Positions 1-16,319 of a stretch of 35,067 nt of DNA are shown here, in pieces. Position numbers and translations under genes: made by a program. Within the stretch, counting starts at the first letter, position 1, and each line of letters begins with the position of its first letter. The stretch is taken from positions 1 to 35,067 of IMG/VR virus record IMGVR_UViG_3300025146_000040. One strand, given 5' to 3'. The notes beneath the pieces are model-generated. The model ran no database searches. It was given only the letters and a program-made list of their open reading frames with translations, and was not told the origin of the DNA. The stretch is from a virus.

Positions 1-614
1 GTGTTGGCCGCATCGCGGCTGAGAAACAGATCGGTCGATCCCGAAAAATCAGCCGCACTATTCCACGCGAACGAGACATCGCTTGCCGCCGTAAAGTTGC
101 TGGGCGCCGTCCGTACAATACGATTTCCGCCTGCCACGAACATAAACGTGCTGGTGCCAGATCGAAAGACGCCCGTTCCTGTATCAGCGGCAAACGTCAG
201 ACTCGGCGTGTCTACCGCGCCATCTGGCACCAACATCCTGATGCCACTCAGGCTCAGCGCCGTCACCCCCGTGTTCGACGAGACCACCGCCGTGTTCGCG
301 GTGTCGTCTAGGTTGATCGTCAGGTCTTCGTCGCTGCCGTCGCCCAGGCCTAGGAGTGTGAGCGCCCCGTCGCCATCAGACGAGAGCCGCACGCCGGCGG
401 GGTTGAGGTTGAGCGAGTCGCCCGCCTGGAGTTGTATGATGTCGGCGGCCGCGCGCTCGAAGCAGGCATCCTGATTGGTCGCATCGACACAGAGCGTGGC
501 GGCGGCGCCCGTGAGTTCCGCCCCGCGCTCGATGAAGACCTGCGCCCGTGCGGCCAGCGACAGCCCCGCCAGCACGGCGAGGCTCAGCACGACGGTCTGG
601 CGCCAGGACTTCAT
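1..614 (-). CDS. Fibre-like virion protein with signal peptide (3' end beyond window)
   Basis: An open minus-strand frame runs from ATG 614 to the window edge without a stop, at least 204 residues. It starts 2 nt after the stop of the 617-979 gene. The first ~25 residues (MKSWRQTVVLSLAVLAGLSL, then AARAQ) form a Sec signal peptide with a likely cut after ARA or AQ. The rest is Ser/Thr/Asp/Gly-rich, with repeats such as SLTFAADTGTGVFRSGTSTF that resemble the 'tail-spike/fibre' beta repeats of phage adhesins. Two Cys lie near residues 42 and 50. No catalytic motif is visible. Placement at the end of the head gene cluster suits a receptor-binding or decoration protein, but a signal peptide on such a protein is unusual. 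Family assignment is inference. Confidence 0.75.
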   Translation of the reverse strand, partial: MKSWRQTVVLSLAVLAGLSLAARAQVFIERGAELTGAAATLCVDATNQDACFERAAADIIQLQAGDSLNLNPAGVRLSSDGDGALTLLGLGDGSDEDLTINLDDTANTAVVSSNTGVTALSLSGIRMLVPDGAVDTPSLTFAADTGTGVFRSGTSTFMFVAGGNRIVRTAPSNFTAASDVSFAWNSAADFSGSTDLFLSRDAAN

Positions 615-616
615 CG

Positions 617-979
617 TCAGTTATTCCGGTCGAGGTAGCAGTGGATCTTCAGCACCCCGCTCGTGCCGCCCGTGCGAATCGCGCGAAACGCCGCCATGAA
701 CGCGGCGCCGCGGACGGTCAGGAGATCGCCCACGTCGAGGAGTTGGCCCTCGGTGCTGGTCGGGTCCGTGCCGTCCCAGCGGAACCGGACTTGGGCCGTT
801 TCCAGCCGCATCTGGCAGGCGGTCTGCGGGGGCCGACCGGCGGGATTCCGAATCGCGGCCGTGATCCCGAGGGCGGTCGTGGCGACCGTCACGCTTTCGT
901 ACGTGACGTGATCTTGCGCCCACGCGGGTGGGGCCAGCAGCAGCGCCCCCGTCAGCGCGAGCGCGCACATCCGTCGCAT
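617..979 (-). CDS. Small exported protein of the structural cluster
   Basis: A 120-residue protein starting at ATG 979, preceded by a good SD (AAAGGAG, 6-nt spacer). The N-terminus MRRMCALALTGALLLAPPAW, then AQ, is a classic Sec signal peptide with an AWA|Q-type cleavage site. The mature part (~100 residues) is beta-rich and contains phrases such as RNPAGRPPQTACQMRLETAQ and HCYLDRNN, with one Cys pair that could form a disulfide after export. I do not recognise the family. It sits between a small membrane protein (997-1344) and the fibre-like gene, and is translated with them. A longer in-frame extension to 1282 exists, but the SD and signal peptide support 979. Confidence 0.75.
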   Translation of the reverse strand: MRRMCALALTGALLLAPPAWAQDHVTYESVTVATTALGITAAIRNPAGRPPQTACQMRLETAQVRFRWDGTDPTSTEGQLLDVGDLLTVRGAAFMAAFRAIRTGGTSGVLKIHCYLDRNN

Positions 980-996
980 GGCAGACTCCTTTACGC

Positions 997-1344
997 TTAC
1001 GGGCTCGGCGGGGCGGCCTGGGCCGACGCCGGAACCGGGGGTTGGACCGGGGCGGCCTGGGCGCGGGCGCTGGCTTCGCGCACGGCCGCGACATACCGCG
1101 CCTGCTCGCGCACGCTGGCGTAATCGCGCACGAACCACCCGACCGCCGCCAGCGCGAACAGCGTCACGAGGCCCCACTTGACGCCGAGGAGCACGCCCTC
1201 TTGGACGCTCCGCACGACGCGGGTCCCGAACGACTCCGTCAGCCGCATCTGGGCCAGTATCGGCTGCCCGCCACCCCGCCACGGGGGGCCCTCGACTGGC
1301 GATGTGGTGGCCTGGAATTCAGCGGCGTCCATCGTGTCCTTCAT
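997..1344 (-). CDS. Small membrane protein of the structural cluster
   Basis: A 115-residue protein from ATG 1344 (an alternative ATG at 1332 has AAGGA just upstream). It has a polar N-terminus of ~45 residues, one transmembrane helix at about residues 50-70 (VLLGVKWGLVTLFALAAVGW), a short charged stretch and a Pro/Ala-rich tail. This is the topology of a bitopic anchor. It starts 3 nt after the stop of the 1348-2346 gene and ends 17 nt before the next start, so it belongs to the same transcript. No known family is recognised; it could be a holin-like or a virion-assembly membrane factor. Confidence 0.65.
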   Translation of the reverse strand: MKDTMDAAEFQATTSPVEGPPWRGGGQPILAQMRLTESFGTRVVRSVQEGVLLGVKWGLVTLFALAAVGWFVRDYASVREQARYVAAVREASARAQAAPVQPPVPASAQAAPPSP

Positions 1345-1347
1345 GCG

Positions 1348-2346
1348 TCACGGTCCCAGCTTCAACACCGGCATGAGGATGTCGGCGGTGGTCAACGCGC
1401 CGGTCGTGGTGGCAGGATTGGCGGCCACGCACGCATTCGCCGCCGTCCCGATCGTGACCGCCCCGAGGTTGTAGACGTCAATGGCCTCGTCATCAATCGG
1501 ATCCCCCGCGACGAACGCGATCCCGGAGGCATCCCCTGAGCACACCCCAATCCGATACATGCCGGGCCCCAGCGTCACATCCGTCACGTTGAGCGTGAGA
1601 TCCGCGGTCGCGGTGAAATCCGCGCTCGTGCCTTCCGTGAGTTGCGCCCCCGCATCGGCGTCTTCGTAAATCGCCACGCCCAAGAGGTCGTCGCCCGCCG
1701 CGATGTCCCCGCCCTGCGTCCCCCTGGCGTACACATTAGCGACCGTAATCCACTGGGGCACGTAGACCCGGTAGACGTACATGACGTTGTCGGCCATCGT
1801 CAGGTCATTGTCGGTCGCGGCAATCCCGAACGGCGGCATGATGAAGACCCCGCCGGTCACGTCGGCGGCGATGTTCGTCATCGGACGGTAGGTGCCCACG
1901 AGATCGTCGGCCCAACTGATGGTGAGGTCAGCCGTGATATCCGCCACCGTCAGCGTGAGTTCAGACGCATCAGCGGTGGCACCCTCAAACCGCAGGCCGT
2001 TCGACACCCCCCAGATCGAATTCGCCACATCAAGATCGTTGGTCGCGAGCGTCGAAAAGAGGAGCGCGGCGGACGCGCTCCCGAACGTGGGGAGGGTCAG
2101 CGTGGTATCCGCCGTCACGCTGGGGACGGCGAGCGTCAGTTCGAAGGCGTCATCCGCCAGCCGATCGGTCCCGCCCTCGAACTTGATGGGACTCGCCCCG
2201 CGGAACGTCCAGACGCCCGAGACAACGGTGTCCTGCAGAGGCAGAAACGCGCCGCCGATACTGACATCTTGGGCGCCGGAATAGGCCGTGGCCCCAAGCA
2301 GCAGTCCAGCAAGCAGCGACACGAAAGGCTTTCGCATGGCGTTCAT
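1348..2346 (-). CDS. Exported beta-rich protein, possible head/tail decoration
   Basis: A 332-residue protein with a signal peptide (MNAMRKPFVSLLAGLLLGAT, then AYSGAQ) and a probable cut near SGA|Q. AAAGGA lies directly upstream, too close to ATG 2346 but 10 nt from the in-frame ATG at 2337, so the true start may be the fourth residue. The mature protein is rich in Thr, Ala and Asp, with repeated 'LTLxVxDxTADxT' phrases (ASELTLTVADITADLTISWA; SVTADTTLTLP; ADLTLNVTDVTLG). This suggests a repetitive beta structure like phage fibres or baseplate decoration. Two Cys near the C-terminus could form a disulfide. The family is not identified. Confidence 0.75.
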   Translation of the reverse strand: MNAMRKPFVSLLAGLLLGATAYSGAQDVSIGGAFLPLQDTVVSGVWTFRGASPIKFEGGTDRLADDAFELTLAVPSVTADTTLTLPTFGSASAALLFSTLATNDLDVANSIWGVSNGLRFEGATADASELTLTVADITADLTISWADDLVGTYRPMTNIAADVTGGVFIMPPFGIAATDNDLTMADNVMYVYRVYVPQWITVANVYARGTQGGDIAAGDDLLGVAIYEDADAGAQLTEGTSADFTATADLTLNVTDVTLGPGMYRIGVCSGDASGIAFVAGDPIDDEAIDVYNLGAVTIGTAANACVAANPATTTGALTTADILMPVLKLGP

Positions 2347-2380
2347 GTCCTTTGTTCAGCGATCGCGGAGACCGCCTCGG

Positions 2381-3601
2381 CTATGGGAGTCTGGTCACCT
2401 CGACCCACTGGACCCGCGCCTCGCTCGACGTCGTGTCGTTCCCGTAGAGGAAGGTCAGGAACGGATTGAGCTGGGTGCCGGCCGTCAGGGTCGTCCCATT
2501 GTTCCCGAGCGGGATTTCGGTCCAGGTCGGGAAGTCATGCACCGTCTGGGAATGCGTGTACGCGCTGGAGTAGTACGCCGAGGGCACGCCCGCCTTGCTC
2601 ACGCAGACCTTGAGCGCCCGCGTTTCCCCGTCCGCCCAGTTCACGCCGGAATCATCGGAGGTCGCGCCGGTTTCGATGTGGAAGATCGACCCGTCTTCCG
2701 AGTTGTAGATCCCCGCGAGGTTGTAGAGCGTGTAAGAGGCCGGCGTGGCGTTGTCGACGAACGCCTCGTTCTGGCGCCAGCCGATCGCGACAAAGTCGGT
2801 CGAGCTGATGTCCGGCAGCAGGATGCTCGCGGCGAAGCACCCGCCCTGCGTGCCGGCCACGAGCACGCCCATGTCCGTGCCCTCAGCCACGCCGAAGATC
2901 ATTTCGACGCCTTCGGCATCGGTCGCCCCGTCATCGGCCGAGAGGTCGAGCACCCCATCCGCGATGAGCCAGGACGACGCCGTCTTGCCCAGTTCCTCGC
3001 GGTATTCGATGATCCCGAGCGGGGAGCCATAGACGACGTTGTCTTCGTCGTCGGTGATGGACTTCGCCGTCATGTCGTCCTGATGGATGAAGTAGCCCTG
3101 ATCGAAGCTGTCCCGGATCGTGAAATCCCGCCACGCCGTCACGGCCGGCGAGAACGACTGGATCTCCATCCAGAACCCGATCTCGCACTCCCACATCCGC
3201 CCGCTGGTCGTATTGATGGCGGGCCGATAGAGGGGCGTCGTGCAGCTCGAGCCGGACACTTGGTCGGCGGTGCCGAACCGCGCGGGCGCCCCCGTCCAGA
3301 CTTTGGCGCCGTTGGGGTGCGGCCGGCTGGCGGTCCCCCCGATCCCGCGCGCGACATTCCAGATCGTCGTGGAACTGCCCACGGCGCTGAGAATCCGCAT
3401 CCGCTCGCGCTCGACATACAGGTCGTGCCCCGCCGCGACGGTCGTGCCGCTGGCGAGGGTGACCGTCGCCGCCTCGGCGGTGGAGACGGCGGCCGCCAGC
3501 GTCGTCGAATTCAGGGTCGTCTGGGCAACGCTCAGCGTGGCCGTCAGCAGAATAGCCAGGGTCATCGCCAGCGACCGCCAGATCGTTGAAGGCTTGGTCA
3601 T
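2381..3601 (-). CDS. Exported virion-cluster protein, 406 aa
   Basis: Start chosen at ATG 3601 (MTKPSTIWRSLAMTLAILLT), with AGGAG about 10 nt upstream. The first 28 residues are a Sec signal peptide ending LSVAQ. The frame is open further upstream, but there it is only the shadow of the coat gene. The mature part starts with a short region (residues ~30-115; LYVERERMRILSAVGSST, RGIGGTASRPHPNG) that looks like phage structural proteins with a 'tail needle/spike head-binding' style. A long beta-rich jelly-roll-like domain follows (RDFTIRDSFDQGYFIHQDD, VALKVCVSK-like strands, ending VQWVEVTRLP), as in carbohydrate-binding or lectin folds. Function is inferred only from position next to the coat gene and from composition. 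Confidence 0.75.
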   Translation of the reverse strand: MTKPSTIWRSLAMTLAILLTATLSVAQTTLNSTTLAAAVSTAEAATVTLASGTTVAAGHDLYVERERMRILSAVGSSTTIWNVARGIGGTASRPHPNGAKVWTGAPARFGTADQVSGSSCTTPLYRPAINTTSGRMWECEIGFWMEIQSFSPAVTAWRDFTIRDSFDQGYFIHQDDMTAKSITDDEDNVVYGSPLGIIEYREELGKTASSWLIADGVLDLSADDGATDAEGVEMIFGVAEGTDMGVLVAGTQGGCFAASILLPDISSTDFVAIGWRQNEAFVDNATPASYTLYNLAGIYNSEDGSIFHIETGATSDDSGVNWADGETRALKVCVSKAGVPSAYYSSAYTHSQTVHDFPTWTEIPLGNNGTTLTAGTQLNPFLTFLYGNDTTSSEARVQWVEVTRLP

Positions 3602-3693
3602 GATGCGTGCGCTCCTGCGTGTGTGACGTGTCTCATGGGCTGAGGCGTCAGGAGACGCCCCAGCCCGTCCGGTTGCCTCTCCGCCGTCCCGCG

Positions 3694-5058
3694 CTACGAC
3701 GCGAGGCGGCACCCCAGCGACTCTCCGCGCAGATCGGCCACCCCGAAGATGACATCGATCCGCGTCAGCCATTGGCCCGACCGCGTCTCGAAGTCGCGGA
3801 CGAACCGCATGGCCAGCCCCGTCTGCTCGTCGCTGATGAGCCCGACCATGTCCTTGCCCTTCGGGCGCGGCAAGTCGGCCATCGCCAGGGTGATGACATC
3901 CCGGTGATGGGCGATGCCCTGCGGCGTCTGCGTGCTCGCCGCCCCGACGACGCTGATGACGGCGTTGTTGGCCGGCGCCGCATCGACGGTCTGGCGCGCG
4001 CCGGAGGTCGTGAGCCCTGGGCTGATCCCGATCGTCTTGTTGCCCGAGCCGTCGGCCGTGACGGGGCCGGTCACCCGCTGTTGCTGGAGCTCCCCGGTGC
4101 TCATGTAATTCGACGGGTTGACGTGATTCGACCCCGCGAGGGTGAGAATGTCGCCCTCGTTGATCACGCTGGTCGTCGCCGTCCAGCCGTCCGTCACCAG
4201 GCTGGTCCCACTCTGGCCGGCCCCGTTCACCAGGGGGGTCCCGGCGAACGCCCCGACGGTGTGCGTGTAGACGTTCTGGCTCATCTGCCACGTGAAGCCG
4301 CCGAACATCCCCATGCGGCCCTTCCGGTACTGCCGCGCGATCTCCTGCGACGCCTGGAACAGCCCCTTGGCCGCATCCACGATGTAGGTCTGCATCCGGC
4401 TGGAGATCGTCATGTAGCGGTGCTCGTCCTGCGGCGCCGCGTTGTCGTCCAGCTTGCTGCCGGCGAGCCCGTACGTCAGCAGCGCCGTGGGGATGGTCCC
4501 CGGGGTCCCGACCGAGTACGGGATCACCTTGGCCGCCTTCTCCATGCACTTCTGGTCGATATACGTGGCGATGCGCGAGACGGCCGGCGCGAGGCACTTG
4601 TCGGAGAAGTTGTCGAGCGAGAGCGTCAGGTCCTTGTTGCTCACTTCCAGGTCGACGCCGAACTCGGTGTCGAGGGTCACCGTGACGGAGGTTTCCTCGA
4701 TCGCCTCAGTCACCATCGCAGACCCCGTGCGCCCCAAGTACCGCGGCGGCTTGCGCACCCGCACGCTATCGCCGTTCCGGCTCGACGCGCCTTCGCCGGA
4801 GAAATAGCTGTCGTACTTGCGGTTGATCGACTTGCAGAAGACGAGGTTGTTCGCCAGGAGCCGCAACGATTCCTTGGTGATGGTGTCCGAGGTCAGGAGG
4901 GTGTTGGCGAAGAACAGGGTCGAGCCGGCGGCGAGCCAGGAGTCGACCAGCCACGTCAGCGCCAGGCCCACGAGTAGGGCGAGTCCAATCCGAGCGGCCC
5001 GAGCGGACGCCGGCAGGTCGTCCCACCAGCGCGAGGACGCGCGTGTACAGATGGTCAT
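3694..5058 (-). CDS. Major capsid protein, P22 coat family, with N-terminal membrane helix
   Basis: 454 residues (P22 coat is ~430). From residue ~51 the protein matches the P22-type coat pattern: ANTLLTSDTITKESLRLLAN, then RKPPRYLG, VTVTLDTEFGVDLEVSNKDL and DKCLAPAVSRIATYID. It would form the icosahedral shell around the scaffold encoded just upstream. The oddity is the first 50 residues, which contain a strong hydrophobic helix (IGLALLVGLALTWLVDSWLA, residues ~24-44) not expected in a coat protein. Normally these proteins start close to the ANTLL motif, but no ATG/GTG/TTG with an SD occurs there. Near 5058 the best SD (GGGGAG) instead precedes a three-codon mini-ORF at 5072 that stops just before the coat ATG. 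The family call is firm; the start is less so. Confidence 0.9.
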   Translation of the reverse strand: MTICTRASSRWWDDLPASARAARIGLALLVGLALTWLVDSWLAAGSTLFFANTLLTSDTITKESLRLLANNLVFCKSINRKYDSYFSGEGASSRNGDSVRVRKPPRYLGRTGSAMVTEAIEETSVTVTLDTEFGVDLEVSNKDLTLSLDNFSDKCLAPAVSRIATYIDQKCMEKAAKVIPYSVGTPGTIPTALLTYGLAGSKLDDNAAPQDEHRYMTISSRMQTYIVDAAKGLFQASQEIARQYRKGRMGMFGGFTWQMSQNVYTHTVGAFAGTPLVNGAGQSGTSLVTDGWTATTSVINEGDILTLAGSNHVNPSNYMSTGELQQQRVTGPVTADGSGNKTIGISPGLTTSGARQTVDAAPANNAVISVVGAASTQTPQGIAHHRDVITLAMADLPRPKGKDMVGLISDEQTGLAMRFVRDFETRSGQWLTRIDVIFGVADLRGESLGCRLAS

Positions 5059-5076
5059 GATCAGTCGTCCATGTCG

Positions 5077-6249
5077 TTACTCCCCGCGAGCCGCTTTGGC
5101 GTCGAGCGCCTCGTTCCGCAGCCGGATGAAATCGGCCGGAGACAGGCGCGGGTCTGTCAGCGAGGCAGCCAGCGAGGCTGTGCGCGCGCCCCCGACCGGC
5201 TCAGGCGGGGGCGGCGCACTGGTGACAGATGAAGTCCCTGGGGACGGAGCCGACGGGGCGCCACCCAGCGACGCTTCGACGCGAGCCAGCCGACGGCTGA
5301 CCTCGTGAGCGTCGCCGACCCAGCGGATGTCCGCGTCGGTGGGCCCGACGCGAACCGGCTGCAAGAGGCCGGCGATCTCACGGCACGCCTCGGGATGGCT
5401 CCCGAGGTAATACAAGAGGTCCCCCGCCAACGGGGACCGTTCGACGAAGTCCCACATCGCCGGGTTCAACGGTAAATCGCTCTGCAAGACCTTGGCGTCG
5501 AAGTCCTCGCCGTACTTGACGTGCGCGGCTTCCTTGCTCGCCAGGAACGCGGCCTCGCGCGTCGCCTGCTCCTGCGCCTGGTGCGCGCGCCACGCCGTCC
5601 GGCGCTGCTCCGCGAGGATCGCGGCGACGGTCTCGCCGGCGACCCGCTCGGCCTCCTCGCGCGTGAGGAGCCCGCTCCGCTTGACGCGCCAATCCTGCCG
5701 GGCGTCGCTGTAGTCTTCGTACGTCGTGTCGGCATGCTCGGCCATCGCCGCCCAGGCATCCCACGTCGGAAAGGTCTCAGGAGGGGCGGCGGCACGGGCG
5801 GCGCCGCCGGCGGGCGCGGGCGCCGGGGCCGGGGCCGGGGCCGGGGCCGGACGTCGCGCTGCGTCGAGTTCGGCCGCCAAGCGCTGCGCCCGCGTTTCCG
5901 CCTCGCGCGCCTTCCGCTCGGTTTCGCGCAGGTCCCACGCCATCTGCGCCAGCCGCGACTGCGGATCGCCCTTGACTTTCTTCGGGCGCTCGCCGGGCTG
6001 GTCGGGGGCCGGCGCGGCGGCCGGCAGGGGCGCAGGGGGCGGGGCCTCTAGAGACGGCCCCTGCGCCAGCGCCGGCGGCGGCGGCGTCTCTGGCGTCGTC
6101 AGCACCCCGCCGAGCGTGGCGGCAATCTGGGTTGGGGTCTCCTCCGTGAACAGCGTCACGCGGTCGACGGTCACCGAGCCGTCGTCATTCAGCACCGCAT
6201 CGGGCGGCGGCGCGGGCGGCGGCGGGGCGGCGGGGGTGTTCTGGTCCAT
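5077..6249 (-). CDS. Scaffolding-like protein
   Basis: About 390 residues from ATG 6249; a longer GTG-start frame to 6345 would run through an intrinsic terminator, so 6249 is preferred. N-terminal ~100 residues are Pro/Ala-rich and disordered. A charged coiled coil follows (RLAQMAWDLRETERKAREAE...), then an Ala-Pro repeat encoded by a GGGGCC hexamer repeat, a second helical part (LLTREEAERVAGETVAAILA) and a short C-terminal helix (SPADFIRLRNEALDAKAARG). High charge, helical repeats and position between portal and coat genes are typical of internal scaffold proteins of P22-like phages. The call rests on context and composition, not on a specific motif. Confidence 0.75.
   Translation of the reverse strand: MDQNTPAAPPPPAPPPDAVLNDDGSVTVDRVTLFTEETPTQIAATLGGVLTTPETPPPPALAQGPSLEAPPPAPLPAAAPAPDQPGERPKKVKGDPQSRLAQMAWDLRETERKAREAETRAQRLAAELDAARRPAPAPAPAPAPAPAGGAARAAAPPETFPTWDAWAAMAEHADTTYEDYSDARQDWRVKRSGLLTREEAERVAGETVAAILAEQRRTAWRAHQAQEQATREAAFLASKEAAHVKYGEDFDAKVLQSDLPLNPAMWDFVERSPLAGDLLYYLGSHPEACREIAGLLQPVRVGPTDADIRWVGDAHEVSRRLARVEASLGGAPSAPSPGTSSVTSAPPPPEPVGGARTASLAASLTDPRLSPADFIRLRNEALDAKAARGE
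5822..5850. repeat. GGGGCC hexanucleotide repeat within the scaffold gene
   Basis: Four perfect GGGGCC units (5825-5848) plus partial units. On the coding strand this gives an alternating Ala-Pro tract. The repeat is GC-only and could change length by slippage; because the unit is 6 bp, the reading frame would be kept. Confidence 0.85.
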
Positions 6250-6264
6250 CGGGGTCTCACCAAC

Positions 6265-6302
6265 AAAAAAGGCTCGGCCGCGCATCAGCGCGATCGAGCC
6301 TT
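6265..6302 (-). terminator. Intrinsic terminator upstream of the scaffold gene
   Basis: On the minus strand AAGGCTCG...CGAGCCTT pairs perfectly (8 bp, with a further CGCGC/GCGCG inner stem), followed by six T (plus-strand A run 6265-6270). It lies between the 6364-6597 gene and the scaffold start at 6249, inside the late operon, so it probably works as a partial terminator or marks a transcript boundary. Confidence 0.8.
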
Positions 6303-6363
6303 CAGGAAGTACCAGCCTCGGCGGGCTGGGGGCCTGTTCAGGCACGCGACACGAGCACGACGC

Positions 6364-6597
6364 TTATTCCATCAGGCCCTCTGAGTCGGTCGGCCGGATC
6401 CGTCCAGTCGCCCTATTGTCAGCCTCCGCCCGCCGCTTGTCAATCCGAATGCGCTCCACGGGTCCCGGGACGGTCAACTCCCGAGGCTCGCCCTCGTGCC
6501 AATGAATCTGGCTCGGCCCGGTATACCGACGCGCCGCGAGGCGCCGCCGCAGTTCCCGCCAGCCGTCGGCGAAGGAGCCGACGTGCCGGTCGCTCAT
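6364..6597 (-). CDS. Small conserved-looking protein downstream of portal
   Basis: 77 residues, start ATG 6597 overlapping the portal stop by 4 bp (ATGA), so it is translationally coupled to the portal gene. The sequence is polar and basic in its middle (WRELRRRLAARRYTGPSQIH, ERIRIDKRRAEADNRATG), with no Cys or membrane helix. I do not recognise it. Its place between portal and scaffold suggests a head-assembly accessory role. Confidence 0.65.
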   Translation of the reverse strand: MSDRHVGSFADGWRELRRRLAARRYTGPSQIHWHEGEPRELTVPGPVERIRIDKRRAEADNRATGRIRPTDSEGLME

Positions 6598-8858
6598 CGC
6601 TGGTCCACCCGCGCCGGCTCGCGCTCGGCGGCCCGGTCTGCCCGCACGGCATGGAGTTCGTCGAGAATCAGCTTCGCTTGCGCCAGGAGTGACCGCGCCT
6701 CCCGCTCGGCCGTCTGCTGGTCGATTTCGCCTTGCAGCTTCGCAATCTCGACGGCGGCCTCGTGCAACGCCTGGTCGTGCTTCTGATTGACTTGGAGCTG
6801 GGCAATCCGCTCTTTCGAGTCCAGTTCGAGCACCTTGAGATCGCGCTCGATCTGCGCCTTGACGGCCTGCGTCTCGAGTTGCCGCTTCGCTTCCTCGAGC
6901 GCCGTCGTCAACGCCTCGTGCTGCTGCATGAGCAGCGTCACTTGCTGTTTCACTTCAGGCGGAATCGGCGGGCGGTCCTGCGGCCCGCGGTCGCGCACCT
7001 CGGGCGGCAGGGTCTTTTCGATGCGCGCCGCGACGTCGTGCAGTCCGAGGGCTTTGAAGAACAGATCCCCGATGAGCGGGAAGAGCTGCGGCGCGGCCCG
7101 AATCGTCTCCTGCAACACCTCGCGGACCTGCTCCCGCTTGGTCGTGAAGCCGGGGCCCGCTTGCGCCTGCACGTCATAAGTGCCGACGCCCATCCGATGA
7201 ATCCGCGACTCACCCGTCTTGGTGTCCAGGTACTCGGCGTTGAGTTTCACCGTGCGTGGCTGATCGTCGGCGCCGATGATGCGGGCAATCCGCTCGGTGT
7301 CGTAGTAGGACGGAATCAGGTCGATCAGGATCCGCCCGAGATGCGAGAGCGTGATGTCGCGGAAGTTCGCCTGATAGTGTCCCGTCCCCAGGTCGGTCTG
7401 GCGCTGACGGGCCGAGATGGCCCGCCCCGACTCCTGCGGCCCCGCTTGACCGAGGCTCGCGTCGTAGAACCGGGTCGACACTTTGACGTCATTGTCGGCC
7501 TGCACGATCGCCGCCACGAGTGGGCCGATGTTCGCGACGGCGGGATTCCGGAACGGCGGCGGCACCAGGTTCCCCGCGATGCTCATCTCGTTGTAGAGCA
7601 GGACGCTGTAGTTCTCGACGTTGGCGTTCTTCCAGAACCGCTCCTGCCCCTTGAGTTGGCTGGCCGTCGCGATGAGCGGGTTCTTGGGGATGAGCCCGAC
7701 GGCTTCAATGAGCGCCGTCATCTGGTAGTCGTAAATCTGACACGATTGTTTCGCGCCCCGCACGATCCCCCGCAGGTCGCGGTCGCCATTGACGAAGAGC
7801 TCTTCCCCGATGACCGGGACCACGGGGATCCAGCGGCCTGGCAATTCCTGCTCTCTGAGGATTTCCACCCCGTTCAGGAGGCGCCAGTGGAGTTGGCGGA
7901 TCTCGAGGTCGCGCCGATTCCTGGGCGTCGGCTCGAGCTGCACCCCGACCGCCGCGAGCTGCGCCTGCAACTGGGGGACGTGGGCCTCCGCGATGACCCA
8001 CGGCTGGCCCTTGGAGTCCATCAGCAAGACGACCGGCATGAACTGCCGGTCGATGTGGTAATGCTCGGCGAGCCGGACGTGGCCGCTGGGGAACCAGTAC
8101 GGGACGTGATCGCCGATGCTCGCGAAGTCGTCCAAGCCCGTCACGGCCGACTCCTCGCCGTATCGGGCGACGTACTCATCGACCGGCCAATCGCTCACGA
8201 TGAAGTAGTCGAGGGCGTCGGAGTAGTCCGGCTCTTCGCACGCCGGATCGGCGTAGACGGCGAAGGGATTCAGCACGCGCTTGATCCGCAAGTCCTGGTG
8301 AAACAGCCCAGGGTCGAAGGCGTGGAACGGGCGCTCCCGAAACCCGACGCGCGTCAGATTCGGCTGCTGGACGTATTCCGGGACGACGCGCACGTAGCCG
8401 CGGCCGATCCGCACCGCCCCTTCCACGGCCCAGGTGTACGCGAGCCGCGCCCGGCTTTGCCCTTCGATATTACGGATCAGCCCTTGGAGCACTTCGGCCG
8501 TCTCCGGGTCCGCCCCCTGATCCTGCGGCTGCACCTCGATGCCCGTGGCGCTATCGCGGTGTTGGTTGACGATGCTGTAGATGGGCTGGGACAGCCGGTC
8601 GACCGAGAAATAGGGCCGCTCGGACCCCGGGCGCGAGCGCTCCGCGATGGCTTCGGGGGCCCAATGCGCCGTCCCGCTGATGTCGGCGGCGAATTCCGCG
8701 TCGGCGAGCATCCGCGCCCGCATCGGGCCTTCCGCGGTCGCGAACCGGAGGAAGAGCCTCCGGGCCTGGGTCAGCGCCGCCTCGTGGCGGTCGCGGGTCT
8801 CCGGGTCCACGGGCGCCTTGGGGCGCCGGCCGCGCGTGTGCACGGTCTGGTCAGCCAC
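6594..8858 (-). CDS. Portal protein, P22-like
   Basis: About 754 residues (P22 portal 725). Start GTG 8858 chosen because AAGGAG lies 7 nt upstream; the frame extends to 8885 but without an SD. Portal-family signatures are present: PYFSVDRLSQPIYSIVNQHR near residue 70, the following VQPQDQGADPETAEVLQGLI stretch, and a helical barrel-like C-terminus with long coiled-coil segments (LMQQHEALTTALEEAKRQLE...IERDLKVLELDSKERIAQLQ). As in P22, it would form the dodecameric ring at one capsid vertex through which DNA is pumped by the terminase. It overlaps the preceding 8851-9117 gene by 8 bp and the following gene by 4 bp. Confidence 0.92.
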   Translation of the reverse strand: MADQTVHTRGRRPKAPVDPETRDRHEAALTQARRLFLRFATAEGPMRARMLADAEFAADISGTAHWAPEAIAERSRPGSERPYFSVDRLSQPIYSIVNQHRDSATGIEVQPQDQGADPETAEVLQGLIRNIEGQSRARLAYTWAVEGAVRIGRGYVRVVPEYVQQPNLTRVGFRERPFHAFDPGLFHQDLRIKRVLNPFAVYADPACEEPDYSDALDYFIVSDWPVDEYVARYGEESAVTGLDDFASIGDHVPYWFPSGHVRLAEHYHIDRQFMPVVLLMDSKGQPWVIAEAHVPQLQAQLAAVGVQLEPTPRNRRDLEIRQLHWRLLNGVEILREQELPGRWIPVVPVIGEELFVNGDRDLRGIVRGAKQSCQIYDYQMTALIEAVGLIPKNPLIATASQLKGQERFWKNANVENYSVLLYNEMSIAGNLVPPPFRNPAVANIGPLVAAIVQADNDVKVSTRFYDASLGQAGPQESGRAISARQRQTDLGTGHYQANFRDITLSHLGRILIDLIPSYYDTERIARIIGADDQPRTVKLNAEYLDTKTGESRIHRMGVGTYDVQAQAGPGFTTKREQVREVLQETIRAAPQLFPLIGDLFFKALGLHDVAARIEKTLPPEVRDRGPQDRPPIPPEVKQQVTLLMQQHEALTTALEEAKRQLETQAVKAQIERDLKVLELDSKERIAQLQVNQKHDQALHEAAVEIAKLQGEIDQQTAEREARSLLAQAKLILDELHAVRADRAAEREPARVDQR

Positions 8859-9117
8859 GGGGGCGCTCCTTGACGAGCGTGGCACGGAAGCTTTCGCCGA
8901 CGCGCAGACTGAACGGCCTCGTCGTCACCGAGAGCAGGACCGGCGGCAGCCCCGGCTCGCGCGTCAGCCGCAGCCAGCGAGGCTCCCCGCCGAAGGACAG
9001 CGGATACCACGCCGCCTCGACGGCCCAGAAGCGCCGCAGGTGCGCCGCGCACGCCTCACAATACCGGGCGACGAACGCCTCGGCGTCTCGCCGGTGAAAT
9101 TCGGGCAGGACGAGCAT
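8851..9117 (-). CDS. Small protein upstream of portal
   Basis: 88 residues, MLVLPEFHRRDAEAFVARYC then EAC, overlapping both neighbours (the 9056-9481 gene by 62 bp, portal by 8 bp). It has a CxxC pair (YCEAC) at about residues 19-22, followed by aromatic-rich sequence (FWAVEAAWYPLSFGG) and a basic C-terminus. There is no known family match. Overlap with both neighbours and good spacing make a real gene likely, but the large upstream overlap lowers certainty. Confidence 0.55.
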   Translation of the reverse strand: MLVLPEFHRRDAEAFVARYCEACAAHLRRFWAVEAAWYPLSFGGEPRWLRLTREPGLPPVLLSVTTRPFSLRVGESFRATLVKERPRG

Positions 9118-9481: not shown

Positions 9482-9780
9482 CAGTGGACCGGCCCGGGAC
9501 GCCGCAGACCGAGGTACTTCCGGATGATCGGGTCCGGGTCGCCCGCATACCAGCGCTCGATCAGCAGCCACGCCCCGGCGATGTCCTGTTCGGTGTACCC
9601 GGCGTTCTTGAGGACGGGCCGCGCGAGCGCCATGAACTGCAGCCAGCCCCCGTCGGCAATCTCCGTCAGCGGGACGTGCGCCCGCAAGGCCGTCACGATC
9701 GCGAACGACCGGATCGTGTGCCCGAGCGCCCGCAGGTAGGCGCTCATGTCCGTGTGGCTGGCGTCGTCGAGGCGGCTCAT
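9481..9780 (-). CDS. Small helical phage protein
   Basis: 99 residues from ATG 9780 (MSRLDDASHTDMSAYLRALG); an upstream in-frame extension to 9921 covers the preceding gene and looks like shadow. The protein is helical and soluble: LTEIADGGWLQFMALARPVL, GYTEQDIAGAWLLIERWYAG, DPIIRKYLGL. This size and helix pattern are common in phage genes between terminase and portal, but I cannot assign a family. Its stop codon overlaps the start of the HExxH gene (TGATG), indicating coupling. Confidence 0.65.
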   Translation of the reverse strand: MSRLDDASHTDMSAYLRALGHTIRSFAIVTALRAHVPLTEIADGGWLQFMALARPVLKNAGYTEQDIAGAWLLIERWYAGDPDPIIRKYLGLRRPGPVH

Positions 9781-9815
9781 GCGTGGCGTCTCGCACAGGG
9801 TAGCATAAGACGCCG

Positions 9816-10154
9816 TCAGCGGGGCGGCGTCGTCAGGGCGTCCGGGAGGGTCAGCGGCCCATTGAGCCAGCCCACCAGAAAGATGGCGTCCGGTCCTGCG
9901 GCCTCGACCACGACCGGCCACGCCTCGCCCGGCCGCACCACTTCAGCCGGCGGACCGAACCCCGCGCCCACGCGCGCCAGATGCGTGACCCGCGCGCCCC
10001 ACCGCTGCTGAATCGCCGCCCACAGATCCGCCGCGCTCGCCAGCGGCACCCGCTCGACCATGAGCGCCGGCGGGGGCGGGAAGTTCGTCAGCAAGACCGT
10101 TGCCGTCGCGGCGGTCGGTCGCCGCAGGGCCGCCGCGAGCCCGAGTGCGTCCAT
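9816..10154 (-). CDS. Hypothetical protein downstream of terL
   Basis: 112 residues starting at ATG 10154 with an excellent SD (AAGGAGG, 6 nt upstream), 12 nt after the terL stop. Composition is Ala/Pro/Val-rich with beta-strand-like segments (TATVLLTNFPPPPALMVERV; FGPPAEVVRPGEAWPVVVEA; AIFLVGWLNGPLTLPDAL). No motif, signal peptide or membrane helix is recognised. It could be a head-completion or capsid-linked protein by position. Confidence 0.65.
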   Translation of the reverse strand: MDALGLAAALRRPTAATATVLLTNFPPPPALMVERVPLASAADLWAAIQQRWGARVTHLARVGAGFGPPAEVVRPGEAWPVVVEAAGPDAIFLVGWLNGPLTLPDALTTPPR

Positions 10155-10166
10155 CTCAGCCCTCCT

Positions 10167-13100
10167 TTATCGGCCTTGCCAGGATCGCCGCGGCATCCCC
10201 TCGTCGTCTCGCGCCTGCGCCGCCTGCTGGGCCTCGGCGGACGGGGCCACGGGGGCGGCGAACGTGTAGGCCAGCGCATCCGCATCGTCCGGCGAGGCTT
10301 CGTTCCGCTTGGCGATGGAGTCCTTCGACTCGATGACGAGCAACTGCTGCCGGTTGCTGTGATAGCCCGGCACGCCGAGCTGATGTTCCAGGGTCTCGTC
10401 CTTGGCGGGAATCGCCCCGGTTCGTAGCCACTCTTTCATCTGGGACCACATATACGCCCGGTAGTTGTAGGCGTACGGGTCGGGTGGCCACAGCGCCCCG
10501 CCGTTGACTTCCATCACGTTGGAGTAGCCGAGCGCCTTGAGCCCGACGACATACGGCCCGCCGAACGCCGTGTCGACGAACATCATGTCGACCTTCCGCT
10601 GGGGGTCGCGCTCAGCCAGCAGGGTCGCCAGCACGGTGAGAAACGCCGTCCGGTCGTGCCGCGTCTTTTCCCCCGGCACCCGAATCGGGGGGATCGACCG
10701 CGCGTCCGCCCCACGCCGGAAGCGCACGACGTTCCACGCGGACCCGCCCCCCGACACGTCCACGCCCGCAATCAACGGCTCGCCGGGCAGCGTGAAGACC
10801 TGGCGCGTCTGCGCCGCCCAAATCCGCTCGGTGTCGATGTACTGGAGTTCGGACGCCCGCGGCGGCAGGCCCTTGACCCGGACCCGGACGAAATCGCTGT
10901 CCTCCCCGTAGGTCTCCATCCACTCCTCGATGAGCGCCAGATTCGCCGTCTCCGTCGTGCGGGCGTCGATGACGGAGGGCGACCACCGGCCACGGTCCCG
11001 CCCGAACACCGCTTCGTAGAACTTCCCCCGATTCCGCGTCGCGTTCCCGAAGAGGAAGACCATCGGCTCGCCGCGCGCCAGGCCCCCTTCCTCCACCTCG
11101 TGGATGATGTCGGGCACGCCGCTGTTGCCGCTCCACACGCACACGCCATCGCGCCGCGTGAAGACGAGGTGGTGCGTCGGTAATTCCACGCAGTAGATCA
11201 GCCCGTCATACTCGATGCGCTGCGGGAGGCGCCCCTGCCGGAACGTCATCGGGGCGCGTTGACGGGAGCGCGTGATCGCGAACCCGTCGCGCGAACTGCG
11301 GATGGGGCGTCCGGCGATGGCGCTCCGCGAGGCCATCAGCCGCCGTGTGGAGAGGGTGCTCGTCGCCCCGCTTTTCAGGCACAGTTCGTGGAGCGCATCA
11401 GCCAGCGCCGGTGAGGATGTATAGATCACATCCAGTTTGGGCGTTTTGTGATATCCATCGCCCGCGACATAACTGTCGAGAAAGAGTCCAATCTGTCGCG
11501 CGCTGAGATCGCGCAGGAACGAGGGTAGCGTGCGCGTGAGGCACGAGGCGCCAAACGGCGCGAGGTATTCGGCCAGCGCGCGATCATGAAACCGCAGGTT
11601 CCAGGCCGAACCATTCGCCCGGTACGCGCGTCCGATGAATCCGAGCGCCGCGGCCAGCCGTTGCACAGGCGCCACGTCTCGATTGGAAATGCCGATGCTG
11701 ATATATTCGCGCTGGCTGAAGCGGTTCACCCGCGAGACGAGGTTCCCTTCCGAGAAATACCAGCCGAGAAAGGCGACCCACGCATCCATCCGCACGAGGC
11801 GCGCGGGGAACTGTTTCCGGTCGGAGACGAACGCGGGAATCGTGAACCACTCCACGTCAGGCGCACCCCAGTCAATATGCCGCTGGAGCGCATCGCGAGG
11901 CCCAATCGACTCGGCGGCCACCCAACGAAACGGCCCATAGGCGCCGCGTCGGTGATTCCACCGTTTGGCCCACATCCGGTGATGCGGCGTCACGCACCAT
12001 GACGCATTCTGCCGTCGGTGCTGGAGCATGAGCCCACGCCGATGCGCCCAATGCACGGCCTTCGGGCGCATATAGGTCGCCAGTCCAGTCTCCTGCGACA
12101 TCGTCACGCAGTCGTCGTCTGGACGCACCGCCCCCACACGAATCCACCCACGCCGCGTCAGGATATCGGTGTCGGCGCTGAAACAGTCCTCATCGTTGAT
12201 GTAGAAGCTCGTGCTGGTCGCGCTGTGCTGGCCGGCGAAGGCTTCGGAGTTCTCCGGCTTGCAGGTCTGCGGAGAGCAGAACCAGCTCTCCGGGAAGGCG
12301 GGATGATACATCCGCGCCTGATTGATCCCGAACCACTGGCCCACGAGGTTCAGCCTGCGCCAGCGCATCACCGCCGCCCAGGTCCGCGTCTTGAGCTGAA
12401 TCGACGTATTCGCGGTCACCGTGCCGATGGCGTAGGGCCGCGTACTCATGATCCAGTTAACGAGGACGGCCGCCAGGACCGAGTTGTGCGTCACAATGAA
12501 GTCGTTCGTCAAATACAGGCCGTCCGGATTGGCTACGGTGATGCACTGGCACTCGGCTGGTTCGACCGCCTCGATACGGTCAATCCATCGTGCCAGGTAG
12601 CGAGGCTCACAGGTGTCGCGCACGCGCGCCTGCTTCGCCGGCAAAGAGAACGGCTGCACCGCTCCGGGCAACCGGATCTGCACATGATGCATCGGTCGGA
12701 TGCCCTTCCCGGTTGGCGCCTTCACGCGAACAAACGCCTTACCTCCAAGCGACCGCACGAGCCACGCGACATCGTCAGCGAGACGCGAGGAACAGGAATC
12801 AAACTCGACTTGCCCGTCCGCCTGCGCGTACCCATCACTGTCAAGTAGCCCGCGGAGGACCTCTGCCCGCACCGCTGGGGTGTTGTACTTCAGCACATCC
12901 GGGACATATCGGTCGGGTTGCGCGAGTTCTGCGAGTCCCAACCCGCGCAAGTGATGCACGAGGCCCCCGATCGCGACCGACACCCCTTCACCCTCACCCT
13001 CGCGACGGACACGCCCGGGCTGATAGCCCCGCGCTCGTGCATGGCCGCAGAACAGGTCCACCTCATGCGCGGCCACGCTGAGTCGTCCAGTGCGACGGAC

Positions 13101-14809: not shown

Positions 14810-15211
14810 ATGAACCTTTCGACCTACAAATCGAACCGCCACATCGTCTACTCCAGCAAATACCACGTCGTCTGGTGCCCGAAGTACCGGCGCAAGGTGC
14901 TGGTCGGGGTCGTCGCGAAACGGCTGGAGCGCGTGCTGAAAACGCTCTGCGCCAAGATGAAGGTCGACATCCTCGCACTGGAGATCATGCCCGACCATGT
15001 GCATCTCCTCTGCGAGGTCGACCCACAGTTCGGCGTCCATCGGCTCGTGAAGCGGCTGAAGGGCAACACGTCGCACACGTTGCGGCAGGAGTTCCCGTCG
15101 CTGAAGTCGCGCCTGCCGACGCTCTGGACGCATTCGTACTTCGTGAGCACGGTCGGCGGAGCGCCGCTCTCGGTGATAAAGCAGTACGTCGAGAATCAGA
15201 AGAATGTCTAA
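14810..15211 (+). CDS. tnpA: Y1 transposase TnpA of the IS200/IS605 element
   Basis: 133 residues. The HUH motif is MPDHVHLL (H63, H65) and the catalytic Tyr is Y126 in VIKQYVENQ, both as required for single-strand transposition by cleavage at the TTAC target and TCAC right end. Typical early motif KYHVVWCPKYRRKVL is present. The start ATG 14810 follows a TATACT -10-like box at 14795. It overlaps tnpB by 8 bp, and the order tnpA-tnpB in the same direction is that of IS605-type elements. No disruption is seen. Confidence 0.95.
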   Translation: MNLSTYKSNRHIVYSSKYHVVWCPKYRRKVLVGVVAKRLERVLKTLCAKMKVDILALEIMPDHVHLLCEVDPQFGVHRLVKRLKGNTSHTLRQEFPSLKSRLPTLWTHSYFVSTVGGAPLSVIKQYVENQKNV

Positions 15212-16319
15212 GAAGACGTTCCGCTATCGGCTGTATCCCACGGCCGCACAGCGCGACGTGCTCGATGGGCAACTCCGGCTTTGCTGCGAGCTGTACAACG
15301 CTGCCCTTCAGGAGCGCCGAGATGCGTGGCGCATGGCTCGCGTGTCGGTGAGGTTCGCGGGACAGTCGGCGCAGCTCCCGGCCATCAAGGTCGACCGTCC
15401 CGATGTGGCGGGTGTCTATTCGCAGGTGCTGCAGGACGTGCTCCACCGCGTCGACAAAGCGTTCGGCGCGTTCTTCGGCCGCGTGCGCCGTGGCGAGAAG
15501 GCCGGGTATCCGCGCTTCCGTGGCCGGAGTCGGTTCGACTCGCTCACGTACCCGCAACTCGGCTTCGCCGTCGAGGGCCGACACCTGAACCTGTCGAAGG
15601 TCGGTGCGGTCAAGATCAAGCTGCACCGGCCTATCGACGGGACGATCAAGACGCTGACGATCAAGCGGGAGGCCGGAAAGTGGTTCGCCTGCTTCAGCGT
15701 CGATGTTGAGCCCGCGCCACTCGCCTTGTCGGTGGAGTCCATCGGCGTCGACGTCGGACTGACCCACTTCGCGACGTTGAGCGACGGCACGCAGATTGCG
15801 AACCCGCGCCACGCCCGTAGGGCGGAAGCGCAGATGCGCCGAGCGCAGCGCCGAATTGCTCGCCGTCGCCGTGGTAGCGCCGGGCGGCGCGAAGCCGTCC
15901 GCCTGTTCCAACTCGCCCAAGCGCATGTGCGGGCTCAACGGGCCGACGCGCACCACAAGCTCTCGCGGTTGCTGGTGAATCGCTACGGTCTCATCTCGGT
16001 CGAGGATCTGAACATCAAGGGACTGGCTGGCGGAATGCTCGCCAAGTCGGTCCACGATGCCGGTTGGTCGTCCTTCATCGACAAGCTTGCGTACAAGGCT
16101 GAAAGTGCCGGGCGCATTCTCCAGAAGGTCGACCCGCGCGGCACGTCGCAGCACTGCACGTGCGGTGCCCACGTACCGAAGACACTGAGCCAACGCTGGC
16201 ACCTGTGTCCGGAGTGTGGGTTGTCGGCCGCTCGTGATCATGTGTCTGCTCAACTCGTCGATTGGCTCGGACTGAGCCTTCAAGACCCAACGTGGGCGGT
16301 TGCGCCGTGCGTGTCTTGA
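15204..16319 (+). CDS. tnpB: RNA-guided nuclease TnpB
   Basis: 371 residues, within the usual TnpB range. It has an N-terminal helix-turn-helix (YRLYPTAAQRDVLDGQLRLC), then a RuvC-like nuclease with all three acidic residues: D183 (GVDVGLTHFATL), E267 (ISVEDLNIKGL) and D345 (SAARDHVSAQ). A zinc ribbon is formed by HCTC (C318, C320) and CPEC (C335, C338). TnpB proteins are guided by a right-end RNA (omega RNA) and help the IS persist by cutting donor sites from which it excised. All catalytic residues are present, so the enzyme is probably active. Confidence 0.95.
   Translation: MSKKTFRYRLYPTAAQRDVLDGQLRLCCELYNAALQERRDAWRMARVSVRFAGQSAQLPAIKVDRPDVAGVYSQVLQDVLHRVDKAFGAFFGRVRRGEKAGYPRFRGRSRFDSLTYPQLGFAVEGRHLNLSKVGAVKIKLHRPIDGTIKTLTIKREAGKWFACFSVDVEPAPLALSVESIGVDVGLTHFATLSDGTQIANPRHARRAEAQMRRAQRRIARRRRGSAGRREAVRLFQLAQAHVRAQRADAHHKLSRLLVNRYGLISVEDLNIKGLAGGMLAKSVHDAGWSSFIDKLAYKAESAGRILQKVDPRGTSQHCTCGAHVPKTLSQRWHLCPECGLSAARDHVSAQLVDWLGLSLQDPTWAVAPCVS

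Follow-up and report, generated by a model that had tools for sequence, protein, structure and literature searches.

The record IMGVR_UViG_3300025146_000040 derives from an uncultured P22-like tailed phage. The whole stretch analysed, a linear DNA of 35,067 bases, is referred to as the window. Its minus strand carries the late genes in the order terminase, P22-type portal (6594–8885; PF16510, E 3.2e-112), scaffold (5077–6345; phrog_8865, E 1.3e-8), P22-type coat (3694–5058) and a cassette of putatively exported proteins. Window coordinates refer to the minus strand unless stated otherwise. The terminase is interrupted by an intein-like insert bearing LAGLIDADG. Three probable inteins are present in this one phage (10167–13970, 22316–24970 and 29777–32506); LAGLIDADG/intein-like inserts occur in the terminase and DnaB-type helicase genes, and a helicase-like gene matches an intein splicing domain. 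Two plus-strand genes within the minus-strand late region (14810–16319) resemble an IS200/IS605-type TnpA and TnpB pair.

Five genes lie between the coat gene and the left edge of the window. Together with the coat gene they make up the six genes named in the original prediction, all of which are present among the open reading frames at their minus-strand positions. The genes starting at 3601, 2346, 979 and 614 had been assigned signal peptides, and each indeed encodes a hydrophobic core preceded by a basic n-region and followed by a cut site. The first (2381–3601) encodes a predicted exported protein with four cysteines, a tail-type N-domain and a putative ConA-like lectin-type C-domain; its signal peptide (3524–3601) is predicted to be cut between SVA and QTT. 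The second (1348–2346) has two cysteines, an N-terminal part with homologues in the relatives L004, L019 and L020, and a signal peptide (2272–2346) with a predicted cut between SGA and QDV. The fourth (617–979) is a small domain with two cysteines (signal 917–979, predicted cut between AWA and QDH). The fifth (1–614) is fibre-like and truncated by the window end (signal 543–614, predicted cut between ARA and QVF) and matches the virion structural family phrog_6005 (E 7.1e-6). The third gene (997–1344), matched by neither Pfam nor PHROG, encodes a small single-span membrane protein. Its predicted helix, likewise anticipated, lies near residues 50–72 (1129–1197) with the N-terminus inside and is followed by an Ala/Pro-rich tail; it is not a cleavable signal.

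Signals were called with a simple home-made rule, not with SignalP. This caller flags all five cassette genes of the window. Its only other hits in the window are the coat extension and three of the 35 remaining genes, two near 25.6–26.6 kb and one a poly-Val artefact. The earlier claim that every gene from the coat onward carries an export signal or membrane helix is true of the five post-coat genes in the window because the window ends there. The near-identical contig L005, whose proteins are identical to those of the window over the overlap, extends past the left edge. It completes the fibre-like gene (9634–10656, 340 residues), where the run stops: the following nine genes have no signals (0/9); these include the head-closure gene (PHROG Hc3, E 7.3e-81) and one for an adaptor-like protein. 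In the window and L005, the caller finds no signal in the scaffold, portal, terminase or head-tail genes.

By this simple rule, cassette signals have small residues at −3 and −1, a basic n-region and a hydrophobic core. In the window and its relatives, a cut directly before glutamine is possible in 34 of 35 signal peptides, with Ala, Ser, Thr or Gly before the cut; the script also counted L054:15017, which is unconvincing. Glutamine after the signal peptidase I cut has been described as the 'Q-rule' for Bacteroidetes proteins (PMC5837995). It is also found after the cut site in L045, L048, L054, L076, L106, L116 and L117, which have normal coats and widely differing GC content. Glutamine at +1 may point to Q-rule hosts and could help in host prediction. 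The cysteine count is even in 29 of 30 mature exported proteins, and an even number is favoured in bacterial exported proteins (PMC7678975). Among cysteine-containing proteins of the same phages, 28 of 29 exported proteins have an even count versus 8 of 19 non-exported late proteins (p = 3e-5, a value that is too small because many of the exported proteins are homologous). Even counts also span unrelated families with differing cysteine positions.

Homologous domains that lack a signal occupy the same genomic place in other phages (L082, L016 and L013) and begin where the mature exported forms begin. Furthermore, post-coat genes carry signals in 20 of 55 cases in contigs with an extended coat versus 21 of 278 in the others, and pre-coat genes in 7 of 62 versus 8 of 206; both comparisons are made by contig and ignore kinship. 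Misplaced upstream start codons, or N-termini that GC-rich DNA has made hydrophobic by chance, are a very improbable explanation. One overcalled start was found, in a gp10-like gene of L014. Against such an artefact stand the glutamine at +1, the even cysteine counts, the recurrence of the pattern in diverged phages and the lack of signals in the nine genes directly after the cassette. The cassette signals are supported as present, recurrent and, by their predicted features, functional in appearance. Use of host export and oxidative folding by the fibre/lectin cassette is well supported by the same predictions.

The N-terminal domain of the protein encoded by 2381–3601 matches a tail protein family (phrog_1101, E 3.5e-5), and no Pfam match was found for this gene. 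Its C-terminal part models as a ConA-like/legume-lectin sandwich with modest TM scores (Foldseek against legume lectins, E 5.6e-6; TM 0.3–0.6, mean pLDDT 72). Cys255 and Cys333 are invariant across 12 homologues. The domain encoded by 617–979 either stands alone or, in L011, L012 and L015, is fused to this lectin-type domain; its homologue in MW202577 is not exported. In L019, two signal-bearing proteins end in a C-terminal Peptidase_S74 fibre chaperone. The lectin-type fold, the tail and virion matches and the S74 domains together identify the cassette as a predicted fibre/lectin/decoration set and not as random membrane genes. The original prediction that host export serves fibre or surface-type proteins is borne out by recurrence, glutamine at +1, paired cysteines and these fibre domains. 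Searches of isolated phages found no homologue of gene 2381–3601, of its relatives in L004 and L054 or of L016:10569–10907, one weak match only for 617–979 and partial low-identity matches only for the L013 relative.

Position and domain matches make the cassette proteins candidate virion parts. They could instead be secreted phage effectors derived from structural domains. Such effectors would cover the surface of the host or be released from it, and might serve to block superinfection or to bind extracellular glycans, for instance; the coat anchor would then be a separate matter. The genuine look of the export signals and the lectin-type fold fit this explanation, virion membership of the exported proteins is read from genes, and the L044 lineage uncouples the anchor from exported genes. 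However, in every relative the genes lie inside the late structural operon, between the coat and the head-tail genes. They match tail and virion structural families, the set includes S74 fibre chaperones, and signal-less homologues occupy the same place. Secretion as effectors is possible but unlikely.

The coat protein consists of an N-terminal extension (residues 1–50; 4909–5058) and a P22/Sf6-type core (3694–4908). It matches PF11651 with 109.6 bits (cut-off 24; E 2.2e-31), and the Pfam domain begins only at residue 51. The AlphaFold model of the core has the HK97 fold of the P22/Sf6 kind (Foldseek, Sf6 coat E 3.6e-24, P22 coat E 5.7e-19). A transmembrane helix had been proposed at residues 24–44; the 19-residue hydropathy peak of the extension is at 24–42 (KD19 1.87), and AlphaFold places a separate helix at residues 17–48. 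The usual charge pattern of the extensions is basic residues before the helix, an uncharged core and neutral or acidic residues after it. At the coat junction there is no cut site of the Ala-Gln type; a small residue precedes the Asn-Thr of the core, but it is distant from the helix. The earlier grouping of coat and cassette needs refinement: the coat segment is of the membrane-anchor type, whereas the cassette signals, 997–1344 excepted, are of the cleavable type.

For comparison, P22-type coat loci were collected in two scans, each yielding 80 loci. Nearly all parsed coats start at a Met that aligns with residue 50 of the window coat; a few start slightly upstream or at the next Met. A start Met directly before the N-arm is thus near-universal in the coats examined, though not family-defining, and the window coat with its 50 extra residues departs from it. 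Hydrophobic extensions of 30–58 residues occur in ten distinct coats, namely those of the window, L108, L044 (the same as L082 and L112), L004, L011, L012, L019, L020, L021 and L022. On the coat tree, a quick search with many open forks, three changes are required to explain the extension, and the coats of the window and L108 form a pair (SH-aLRT 91). Between related coats the extension retains 8–16 of 29–44 aligned residues, versus 74–88% in the first 100 core residues. Hydrophobicity is retained while the sequence drifts, like in signals and anchors.

Chance and misplaced starts also bear on the coat. Shuffling yields an open membrane segment in 0.6% of cases for the window extension and in 0.3–6% per shuffled extension across the set, and possible GTG/TTG starts lie near the normal position in some clade-A coats; both would fit an artefact. 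Shuffling alone gives an anchor in a single phage weak support; the case depends on the absence of a normal Met and on the paired coat of L108. In the window coat, the 12 codons that precede the canonical start include no ATG, GTG or TTG. An ordinary start codon near the coat core is absent in five of the nine extended coats checked (window, L012, L020, L021 and L044); in these five the extension is therefore translated unless a rare codon is used. An internal start that would yield an anchor-free coat was considered and rejected: these five lack ATG, GTG and TTG, such a start is possible in L022, L011 and L019, and a CTG start is possible. Cysteine parity of the coat was not counted as evidence of export although it is even in eight of nine distinct extended coats, because the cysteine columns are shared with non-extended coats. 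Judged from the predicted features, the coat anchor is well supported and most probably translated.

In five relatives from clade A (L004:7680–7702, L020:7841–7866, L021:4339–4361, L022:5664–5689 and L011:8478–8506), a GC-rich hairpin of about 6–12 base pairs ends immediately 5' of the start codon of the coat gene. It shows some compensatory changes (92% of cells paired) and possibly serves translational control. It was not seen in the window. GIY-YIG-like homing endonuclease genes directly follow the coat gene in L004 (9063–9869), L082 (6456–7280) and L108 (about 5680–6330), which belong to three extended-coat lineages. In L015 the coat gene is apparently split by an HNH-type endonuclease insert, probably an intron (4840–5674).

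The extension charges predict that the coat domain is translocated across the membrane, whereas the packaging proteins are cytoplasmic. Scaffold, portal and terminase lack signals, so capsids would be filled in the cytoplasm, and a translocated coat domain cannot form DNA-filled capsids. The extension could be read as a hydrophobic segment resembling a scaffold or delta domain, which lies inside the procapsid and is later removed or buried, with the downstream export being independent. The P22 coat N-arm binds scaffold (PMC9962691), which is in favour of this reading, as are the separate AlphaFold helix, the cytoplasmic scaffold, portal and terminase and the conflict between predicted topology and packaging. 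The signal-anchor features (basic, uncharged, then neutral or acidic) and the fast drift under retained hydrophobicity argue against it. An internal scaffold-like segment with unrelated export is unlikely.

Searches with gene 2381–3601 returned relatives at 32–63%. In L004, L011 and L012, and in L019–L022 where the sequence allows, the coat is extended and signal-bearing genes fill the interval to the head-tail genes, interspersed with a few small non-exported genes. The layout, which the original prediction proposed to look for in related contigs, is repeated even in relatives whose coats are only about one third identical. In L013–L016 exported genes are present with a normal coat, and the L044 lineage has the coat anchor, with no exported genes among the 6 kb examined. 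A link between anchor and exported genes was considered (Fisher p 0.001 by contig) but is not established, because the coat tree offers only three independent pairs. Scans of genome collections for the host detected no closely related prophage and yielded just a coat match of 25% in Solidesulfovibrio. A literature search yielded nothing describing an exported cassette together with an anchored coat.

We favour, tentatively and at somewhat less than an even chance, that host-export modules were added in two forms to the N-termini of otherwise standard structural genes. In the first form, accessory fibre, lectin and decoration-type proteins with cleavable Sec/signal peptidase I signals would leave the cytoplasm, be cut before glutamine and form disulfide bonds as they fold in the periplasm; they may join finished virions at cell lysis. 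In the second form, the anchor occupies the usual place of the coat start Met, and therefore nearly every coat molecule would be made with a membrane segment. The anchor may tether procapsid assembly to the inner membrane and then be clipped off or buried. Alternatively, it may hold the coat on the cytoplasmic face, be removed, or serve, close to the N-arm, as an internal helix that works like a scaffold. Where each protein resides, how the exported parts join the virion and what becomes of the coat anchor are inferences in this model. The presence of the anchor at three places of the coat tree makes membrane-associated assembly a reasonable suggestion; periplasmic loading is conjecture. The conflict between coat topology and packaging, the missing Ala-Gln site at the coat junction and the L044 anchor without exported genes speak against this model.

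A bolder version would be a tailed HK97-fold phage with a membrane-protein coat, whose capsids form on or around the inner membrane, possibly with lipid and hundreds of coat helices retained in the particle, and whose fibres would be added from the periplasm. To our knowledge, a tailed phage with a membrane-associated shell is not a known body plan, and we consider this version quite improbable. The usual view is that tailed-phage virions are built wholly in the cytoplasm, the export machinery being needed mainly for lysis and host-modifying proteins. If the favoured model is true, there is a second route to the virion, in which some parts mature outside the cytoplasm and assembly takes place at the membrane.

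The cassette signals resemble Q-rule substrates of Sec and signal peptidase I in the glutamine after the cut (34/35); the rule was described for host proteins of Bacteroidetes (PMC5837995), whereas here it concerns phage late genes. With the head module of P22/Sf6-type podophages the window has the coat family and fold, portal, scaffold and gene order in common. The coats of these relatives and isolates start at the aligned Met without an anchor; the window adds the anchor and the exported cassette. Both additions are absent from the isolated-phage homologues examined, in agreement with the original view that standard P22 biology does not explain the pattern. Known Peptidase_S74 tail fibres are made in the cytoplasm; the two exported L019 proteins have the same C-terminal domain but differ by bearing Sec signal peptides. 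HK97-type coats with a delta domain likewise have an N-terminal extension, but that domain is a scaffold and not a membrane-type helix like that of the window coat. In tailed phages, a preformed shell is filled with DNA in the cytoplasm. Inovirus coat proteins, on the other hand, enter the inner membrane by an N-terminal signal before assembly, and the window coat is similar to them in its N-terminal membrane signal and different in its unrelated fold and particle.
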